Below, in pieces: positions 4,813-23,764 of a DNA stretch of 64,000 nt (positions are counted from its first letter, which is position 1; each line of letters begins with the position of its first letter). The DNA comes from an uncultured Microcaldota archaeon (GTDB lineage Archaea; Micrarchaeota; Micrarchaeia; Micrarchaeales; Micrarchaeaceae), in contig CAISDH010000033.1 of assembly GCA_903884115.1 (NCBI GenBank), forward strand, positions 1-64,000, written 5' to 3'. Made by a program: the position numbers and the translations under genes. The notes beneath the pieces were generated by a model, which saw only the letters and a program-made list of their open reading frames with translations, was not told where the DNA came from and made no database searches.

Positions 4813-4945
4813 ATATAAAAAATGTTTGTACTGGTAAGAGTTTGTGAATGTTGGAGTCCATTACGACCTCGTTTGAATTATAGAAAGGGGATAGCTCGCG
4901 TCTCCACAAAGAATAATAAGCATACGCGTGTCAAGCTAATATGCA

Positions 4946-5054
4946 GGGCCCATGGCTCAGTTCGGTTAGAGCGGCCGGCTCTTAACCGGTAGGTCGGGGG
5001 TTCAAAAAACAAAGCCTAGCCATGCTAGACTTTCTGAAAATCCCCCTGGGCCCG
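4946..5054 (+). tRNA. tRNA-Lys(CUU) with a 34-nt intron in the T-loop (5007..5040, position 59/60)
   Basis: Acceptor GGGCCCA/TGGGCCC, D-arm GCTC..GAGC, anticodon arm GCCGG-CTCTTAA-CCGGT, T-stem GGGGG/CCCCC. The T-loop becomes TTCAAAT only after removing 5007..5040. BHB-like central helix TTCA 5001-5004/TGAA 5035-5038 with bulges AAA and AAT. Confidence 0.88.
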
Positions 5055-5372: not shown

Positions 5373-6539
5373 CTACGGCTGCATCCAGTCTATCTCGTAG
5401 TACTCGTACTCGCTGCCCTGGAGCTCTATCCTCTTAACGCGGTAGTATGTCACTGCGGTCTCCCTGTCCGCAATCGCAATTATGAGTTCCAGCTTGTGCT
5501 CGCTGGCATCGTTGATTATGGCAGAAAGCTCGTTGCCGCCCAGGTACTCCTCTTCGCTCAGAGACAGCATTGCGAACCTTGGCCTGCCGGTGCTCGGTGT
5601 TTCTATGCCGTTGCCCTTCCGATGGTAAAGCACAAAGTCTATTGCAAGGCGCTTCTTCCGGCTCCTACCTGGTATTGCGAGTATGAAGGTCTTCCTTACC
5701 GAATGCGCAACCCTGATAACTCTGGCCCATTCTGAGATGAGCAGCTTAGCGTCCCTTGGAAATACGTGGATGACGTGCCTGGAATGCACCCAGCTCTCGT
5801 TGTTCTGCATGGGTTGGGCACCGGGGAAGTACACTCTGAAATGAGTGCCGAACTTGAACCCTGTTTTTATGACATAACCACGGCTTCGCCAGTCGCTGTA
5901 TACGTCGTAAAGCTTCTGGAAATCTGCCCTGCGCTTGTTCGCGAGCGCTGCGATGTCCTTGCGGCTGTAGTTTTTCACATGCAGCACGTCGCTGTCGATG
6001 AGGAAGAGGGTTTCGTAGACATCCAGCTTGTTCAGCACGCCGTGATCGTTGGTCTTATATGTCCCGTACTGGCCGAACCAGTGCTCTTCGTAGATCTTCT
6101 TTCCCTGCACCTCGTCGTCTATTATTGTCATCATGTCTGCAGGGAAGAAAACGCCTTCCATTGAGTAGTCCTTGAGCTTCAGCTTTGCCGCGCGGTAACT
6201 CTTTAGTGTCGGAGTACCTCCTTCTGCAGATAGGTTTTCTGGCCTCTTTATTATGAGTCCGCGGTCGCGCCAGTCCTTGTATGTGAAGTAGCGCGCCAGG
6301 AACTTGTTTCCTACGCTGAATTCCTGCGCAATCTCGTTGAAAGAGAGCGGCTTCTCCTCCTTGGCCGATGTGCACGTGGCGTTCCTCACATCCATCAGGT
6401 ATAGACCTTCTTCTGGCGCAAGTACAAGCCTGCCCTCGTACGCGACGCCGAAGCATCCGCTTGCGAGCACGTCTTTAGTGGACTGGTCTGCGGTGTAGAT
6501 GCTCCTTGTTTTCTTGTCGAAAATGAGCAGCAGGGGCAT
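5373..6539 (-). CDS. endA: tRNA-intron (splicing) endonuclease, long three-unit type
   Basis: 388 aa with catalytic-type region GTHFRVYFPG (Tyr), HSRHVIHVFP (His), VAHSVRKTFILAI (Lys). Repeated YxxYxDWRxRG segments and a C-terminal structural unit match the single-chain epsilon2-type architecture described from ARMAN archaea. Confidence 0.88.
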   Translation of the reverse strand: MPLLLIFDKKTRSIYTADQSTKDVLASGCFGVAYEGRLVLAPEEGLYLMDVRNATCTSAKEEKPLSFNEIAQEFSVGNKFLARYFTYKDWRDRGLIIKRPENLSAEGGTPTLKSYRAAKLKLKDYSMEGVFFPADMMTIIDDEVQGKKIYEEHWFGQYGTYKTNDHGVLNKLDVYETLFLIDSDVLHVKNYSRKDIAALANKRRADFQKLYDVYSDWRSRGYVIKTGFKFGTHFRVYFPGAQPMQNNESWVHSRHVIHVFPRDAKLLISEWARVIRVAHSVRKTFILAIPGRSRKKRLAIDFVLYHRKGNGIETPSTGRPRFAMLSLSEEEYLGGNELSAIINDASEHKLELIIAIADRETAVTYYRVKRIELQGSEYEYYEIDWMQP

Positions 6540-23677: not shown

Positions 23678-23764
23678 GCGCCAGTGATCCAACCTGGTTA
23701 AGATACTAGCTTCCCATATCATTGGAAACAGCTAGCGATCCGGGTCCAAATCCCGGCTGGCGCA
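23678..23764 (+). tRNA. tRNA-Gly(CCC) with a 13-nt canonical intron (23717..23729, position 37/38)
   Basis: Acceptor GCGCCAG/CTGGCGC, anticodon stem CTAGC/GCTAG, loop TTCCCA|intron|A. BHB central helix TTCC/GGAA with bulges CAT and ACA. T-arm GGG-TCCAAAT-CCC region. Confidence 0.9.

Follow-up and report, generated by a model that had tools for sequence, protein, structure and literature searches.

A tRNA-Lys(CUU) gene with an interrupted T-loop

The DNA analysed here (the window, positions 1 to 64,000 of contig CAISDH010000033.1 of an uncultured Microcaldota archaeon) carries on its plus strand a tRNA-Lys(CUU) gene, for which an initial annotation had proposed a 34-nt intron in the T-loop. 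The precursor, including the discriminator base G73 (the G at 5054), extends from 4946 to 5054, and this extent is based on the sequence, on the ARAGORN call of the spliced form and on orthologs in relatives. The 5' exon (4946..5006, plus strand) comprises the 5' arm of the acceptor stem, the D-arm, the anticodon arm (CTT), the variable loop, the 5' arm of the T-stem and the T-loop bases TTCAAA. It is followed by the 34-nt intron AAACAAAGCCTAGCCATGCTAGACTTTCTGAAAA (5007..5040, plus strand), which was placed at tRNA position 59/60 by the sequence, by ortholog comparison and by the tRNA call of the spliced form. The 3' exon (5041..5054, plus strand) consists of T60, the T-stem 3' arm CCCCC, the acceptor 3' arm TGGGCCC and G73. 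All four stems are intact: a 7-bp acceptor stem (GGGCCCA/TGGGCCC), the D-stem (GCTC/GAGC), the anticodon stem (GCCGG/CCGGT, loop CTCTTAA) and the T-stem (GGGGG at 4996-5000, CCCCC at 5042-5046), the arms of which are 41 nt apart. Removal of 5007..5040 restored the T-loop TTCAAAT and ARAGORN then called a complete 75-nt tRNA-Lys(ctt). Arm distance, insert boundaries and restored loop had all been given correctly to the base in the initial annotation. Since the flanking stems are perfect (7 + 5 bp) and covariation is observed among relatives (see below), the insert is not a product of chance.

It had also been suspected that standard tRNA finders might miss this gene and this turned out to be the case. 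ARAGORN made no call on the unspliced gene even when anticodon-loop introns were allowed, and the gene was absent both from the window-wide ARAGORN scan and from the Rfam scan at the gathering cut-off. A looser scan of the genome scored it at 28.6 bits, slightly below the 29-bit cut-off. BLAST matches of relatives to the gene stop at the end of the 5' exon (query 1-61/62). A pattern taken from the 5' end of the gene, scanned against named genome contigs, matched chiefly unrelated bacteria and no close relative.

We found no second Lys(CUU) gene, which had been named beforehand, together with lack of expression, as evidence against the intron, among 42 tRNA matches, among BLAST matches and with a tolerant anticodon-arm pattern in an assembly that is about 92% complete. 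In 11 window genes, 172 of the 254 lysine codons are AAG and 82 are AAA. The lack of a second detected gene and the use of AAG as main lysine codon suggest that the interrupted gene is probably used. A decayed tRNA pseudogene with a random insertion, in which case AAG would be read by wobble of Lys(UUU), is very unlikely. The genome does contain an intact Lys(UUU) gene (L005, ARAGORN) and archaeal tRNAs with U34 are in principle able to decode G-ending codons, but every stem of the spliced tRNA is intact, the insert covaries in orthologs, its 3' signal TGAA-AAT is common to well over 100 other inserts, and AAG is the lysine codon that the organism prefers.

The bulge-helix-bulge motif of the intron

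The T-loop exon bases TTCA (5001..5004, plus strand; tRNA positions 54-57) and the intron bases TGAA (5035..5038, plus strand) form the two strands of the central helix of a bulge-helix-bulge (BHB) motif, exactly as initially annotated, and both strands are assigned by covariation in relatives. On the 3' side, the helix is flanked by the bulge AAT (5039..5041, plus strand), which recurs as AAT in 114 of 141 related introns and puts the predicted 3' splice site between 5040 and 5041. The opposite bulge, AAA (5005..5007, plus strand), puts the predicted 5' splice site between 5006 and 5007; this bulge is relaxed, with positions 5008-5010 also unpaired. RNA folding gave an inner intron hairpin AAAG.C.CTAGC-CAT-GCTAG.A.CTTT (5011..5033, plus strand). 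Thus, of the two flanking 3-nt bulges proposed initially, the 3' bulge is exact, the 5' bulge is not closed by the inner helix, and the description of this helix as irregular is confirmed. Since the bases AAC are unpaired beyond AAA and face a single C, a 6x1 internal loop is formed and the motif is of the relaxed (hBH-like) type. Such hBH motifs have been described as substrates of epsilon2-type tRNA-splicing endonuclease (EndA) (PMC6379350).

The Lys intron shows the characteristics of a BHB intron: the tRNA is restored on its removal, the central helix of 4 bp pairs exon with intron bases and covaries, and the 3' bulge has 3 nt. Judged from its sequence, it is a genuine non-canonical archaeal tRNA intron of known kind with a relaxed BHB. 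Three observations speak against this assignment. The 5' bulge AAA lacks a contiguous closing inner helix, so that a BHB in the strict sense is not formed. At -15.3 kcal/mol, the BHB fold has no advantage in stability over a fold with open central helix (-15.7 kcal/mol); as the forced BHB pairing lies only 0.4 kcal/mol above the minimum-energy fold, energy alone is neither proof nor exclusion. Finally, the central helix has a single mismatch in three orthologs (L153, L159, L165).

Because of the A-run at the junctions, the splice junction can slide from 56/57 to 59/60 without any change of the mature sequence. The register 59/60 is the one chosen by the BHB geometry, with each bulge cut between its second and third base (between TTCAAA and T). 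That a BHB intron is cut here in a shifted register inside the A-run (56/57 to 58/59) is highly improbable: there are A-runs at both junctions and the four cut positions lead to identical mature RNA, but the geometry gives 59/60 and the same 3-nt 3' bulge fits the relatives. We also considered a group I or group II self-splicing intron. These introns have a catalytic core of hundreds of nucleotides and form recognisable RNA families; the insert has only 34 nt and there was no Rfam intron match in the window, and this candidate was rejected.

Orthologs with and without the intron

The tRNA-Lys(CUU) gene was searched against 60 relatives and the Lys(CTT) orthologs were parsed (L157, which has one T-stem mismatch, by eye). 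A T-loop insert was found in Lys(CTT) of 12 genomes of the same family (G000, which is the genome of the window, G008, G009, G010, G011, G015, G018, G022, G024, G032, G033 and G034). In about 28 relatives the T-loop is uninterrupted and reads TTCAAAT, TCCAAAT, TCCGAAT or TTCGAAT. Among the interrupted orthologs, the exon and intron strands of the central helix covary (TTCA/TGAA, TCCA/TGGA, TCCG/CGGA and, with a G-U pair, TTCG/TGAA), and the inner helix also differs on both of its sides between the sisters G033 and G010 (TGCA/TGCA versus TGCT/AGCA).

These data bear on the idea that the insert is kept as an extended T-loop of a working tRNA. The inner hairpin is stable, as such a structure would require, but an extended T-loop is expected to break the elbow between D-loop and T-loop, intronless orthologs carry the loops TTCAAAT, TCCAAAT or TCCGAAT, and the pairing between exon and intron is under selection. 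We therefore regard a retained insert as extremely improbable.

When the presence of the intron was mapped on the EndA tree, at least six changes were required, three of which are forced by well-supported branches. These changes indicate that the Lys intron was gained or lost several times.

T-loop introns across the lineage

A pattern that spans the T-stem, the T-loop and the 3' end of the intron (GGGTYCRAA-N6..36-RAANTCCC) matched in 55 of the 60 relatives, with 142 matches listed, and the reversed-pattern control gave 3. A stricter pattern had matches in 121 of the 295 genomes searched from the phylum (control 0). The central helix is paired at 4/4 positions in 130 of 141 distinct matches. 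In 131 of the 141, both base 56 and base 57 have a pairing partner, compared with a mean of 10 in shuffles (maximum 23 in 1000 shuffles), and covariation was found between base 57 and its partner (Fisher p = 1e-9 for the 141 matches, the rows of which are not phylogenetically independent). In 103/141 matches, an inner helix of at least two contiguous pairs follows (24 expected). A 3-nt 3' bulge (AAT, ATT, ACT or AGT) fits the introns of the relatives, the first and last base being fixed by the pattern itself. When 30 matches were checked in context, 29 were tRNA genes (Ala, Arg, Ser, Pro, Thr, Lys) that ARAGORN recognises only after splicing at 59/60. The thirtieth, a tRNA-Ser that is recognised unspliced, was a false match of the pattern.

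In the genome of the window, Arg(TCG) (L182, C6:44183), Arg(CCT) (L184, C3:24860) and Ala(GGC) (L185, C23:10121) are interrupted in the T-loop by 46, 38 and 26 nt, respectively. Splicing at 59/60 turns all three into normal tRNAs. With Lys(CUU), this genome has at least four clear T-loop introns. The initial description of such introns as rare does not apply to this group, considering these cases and the matches in 55 of the 60 relatives, but it may hold for archaea at large. According to the pattern and context data, introns recur in the T-loop of tRNA genes of this group, and predicted introns of this kind are unusually common there. A literature search, which did not cover the key 2011 paper on the ARMAN endonuclease, yielded no census of T-loop introns for Micrarchaeota and we do not claim priority.

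Several other tRNA genes of this genome are irregular. The Leu(CAA) gene (L029, C51:24054) has a 12-nt T-loop insert outside the BHB register. A Cys(GCA)-like gene (L187, C9:768) shows TTCG/CGAA pairing, an odd D-arm and a shorter, less regular insert, and there is a second Cys(GCA) gene (L015). Inspection by eye suggested that tRNA-Ile(GAT), Gln(CTG) and Leu(TAA) probably have an intron in the D-arm and that one tRNA contains multiple introns (L181, C57:6492; L183, C51:21229; L186, C6:11517; L177, C21:4681). A tRNA-Gly(CCC) with a 13-nt anticodon-loop intron (window 23678..23764) scored 45.9 bits in the genome search and was not listed by the Rfam scan of the window. ARAGORN also reported an intron-containing tRNA-Pyl(cta) (L021, C33:148274-148370, minus strand); inspection by eye suggests that this is probably a misparsed intron-bearing tRNA and no evidence of pyrrolysine, and the call was set aside.

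Similarity of introns between tRNA genes

Introns of different tRNAs in the same genome are more alike than expected by chance: their mean similarity was 0.450, compared with maxima of 0.407 for label permutation (300 rounds) and 0.398 for shuffling (100 rounds). Look-alike pairs include Ala(ggc)/Arg(tcg) in G012, Cys/Ala in G030, Arg(tct)/Ser(cga) in G053 and Ala/Arg in G017, and some of the similar pairs are very short. Near-identical T-loop introns were also seen in different tRNA genes within G012, G017, G030, G025, G019 and G053 (L284-L299). Such near-identity within a genome suggests copying between tRNA genes, similar to the transposition of introns known from Thermoproteales (PMC4033280), and gene conversion or a shared bias may also account for the similarity. 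Taken together, introns of this class have been gained and lost repeatedly in the lineage and appear to have been copied between tRNA genes.

Splicing enzymes and neighboring genes

The presumed cleaving enzyme, an epsilon2-type EndA of 388 amino acids with N-terminal and catalytic domains (PF02778/PF01974), is encoded 0.3 kb downstream of the tRNA gene (5373..6539, minus strand). Over its full length it matches the EndA of ARMAN-2 (4FZ2; 555 bits, 62% identity). In this analysis, the type of EndA and its likeness to the ARMAN-2 enzyme were the grounds for regarding the genome as probably belonging to Micrarchaeota. It has the properties of the epsilon2 type, namely three units fused into one chain of about 390 amino acids, the catalytic Y/H/K triad and the Tyr-Lys pair of the ASL. 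The residues Y161, K162, Y237, H252 and K283 correspond to Y160, K161, Y236, H251 and K282 of ARMAN-2 EndA and are kept in 43/43 aligned sequences. For the ARMAN-2 enzyme, mutation has shown that the ASL residues Y160 and K161 are needed for cleavage (PMC12397907). Enzymes of this type are reported to remove relaxed-BHB introns efficiently, and the T-loop is among the reported sites of archaeal tRNA introns (PMC6379350, PMC4033280). RtcB, the archaeal tRNA ligase, is also encoded in the genome.

In many genomes of the family, EndA lies about 3 kb or less from tRNA-Lys(CTT), when both are on one contig, irrespective of whether the tRNA gene carries an intron. As this proximity is also seen in intronless genomes, the linkage looks ancestral and is not diagnostic, and we set aside its interpretation as a functional pairing.

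Between the tRNA gene and EndA lies a convergent acylphosphatase-like gene (PF00708; 5056..5361, minus strand), which ends 2 nt from the tRNA gene. About 30 nt upstream of the tRNA gene we noted an A/T-rich, TATA-like box (GAATAATAA; 4911..4919, plus strand) as a weak candidate promoter, and comparison by eye showed TTTATAA at the same place in many orthologs.

Discussion

The restored cloverleaf, the covarying and the intronless orthologs and the adjacent epsilon2 EndA bear out the initial proposal of a T-loop intron. We consider it very probable that an archaeal BHB-type intron at position 59/60 interrupts the sole detected tRNA-Lys(CUU) gene of this genome, that epsilon2 EndA cuts this intron and that RtcB joins the exons. 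The intron is most likely spliced, and the neighboring EndA is the predicted enzyme. From the genomic data we infer the following course of events. After transcription, the T-loop exon bases TTCA (54-57) of the precursor would pair with TGAA near the 3' end of the intron and this helix would be stacked on the T-stem, leaving AAA and AAT as bulges. A homodimer of the broad-specificity epsilon2 EndA would then cut each bulge between its second and third base, and ligation of the exons by RtcB would yield the normal T-loop TTCAAAT.

The closest known systems are the non-canonical introns of ARMAN-1 and ARMAN-2 (Ca. Micrarchaeum), which share with the present case an ultrasmall archaeal host, an orthologous EndA and introns that have a relaxed BHB and lie at various positions of the tRNA (4FZ2; PMC12397907, PMC6379350, PMC4033280). 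For this system, our literature search turned up neither a T-loop intron nor tRNA-Lys(CUU) among the published tests. Thermoproteales also have multiple introns with BHB motifs at non-canonical positions, and similar introns in different tRNAs were read there as intron transposition (PMC4033280). However, they belong to another phylum and their (alpha-beta)2 EndA carries a CSL in place of the ASL loop. Introns also lie in the T-arm of tRNA genes in Caldiarchaeum subterraneum (PMC3293823) and in the red alga Cyanidioschyzon merolae (PMC9602550), but hosts and enzymes are unrelated.

The near-invariant T-loop serves as pairing site and thus, introns of this class can settle in many tRNA genes. 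On balance, we favor the view that position 59/60 is a systematic landing site in this phylum: the T-loop motif TTCR would provide one helix strand, introns ending in YGAA-AA would fit many tRNAs, and such introns would spread within genomes and be lost repeatedly. T-loop introns destroy a highly conserved landmark of tRNA finders and therefore, a genome of this group can seem to lack an entire isoacceptor, in the present case the main lysine decoder. With its many ortholog pairs that differ in the presence of the intron and its near-identical introns, this lineage makes intron gain, intron spread and the substrate range of epsilon2 EndA directly testable.
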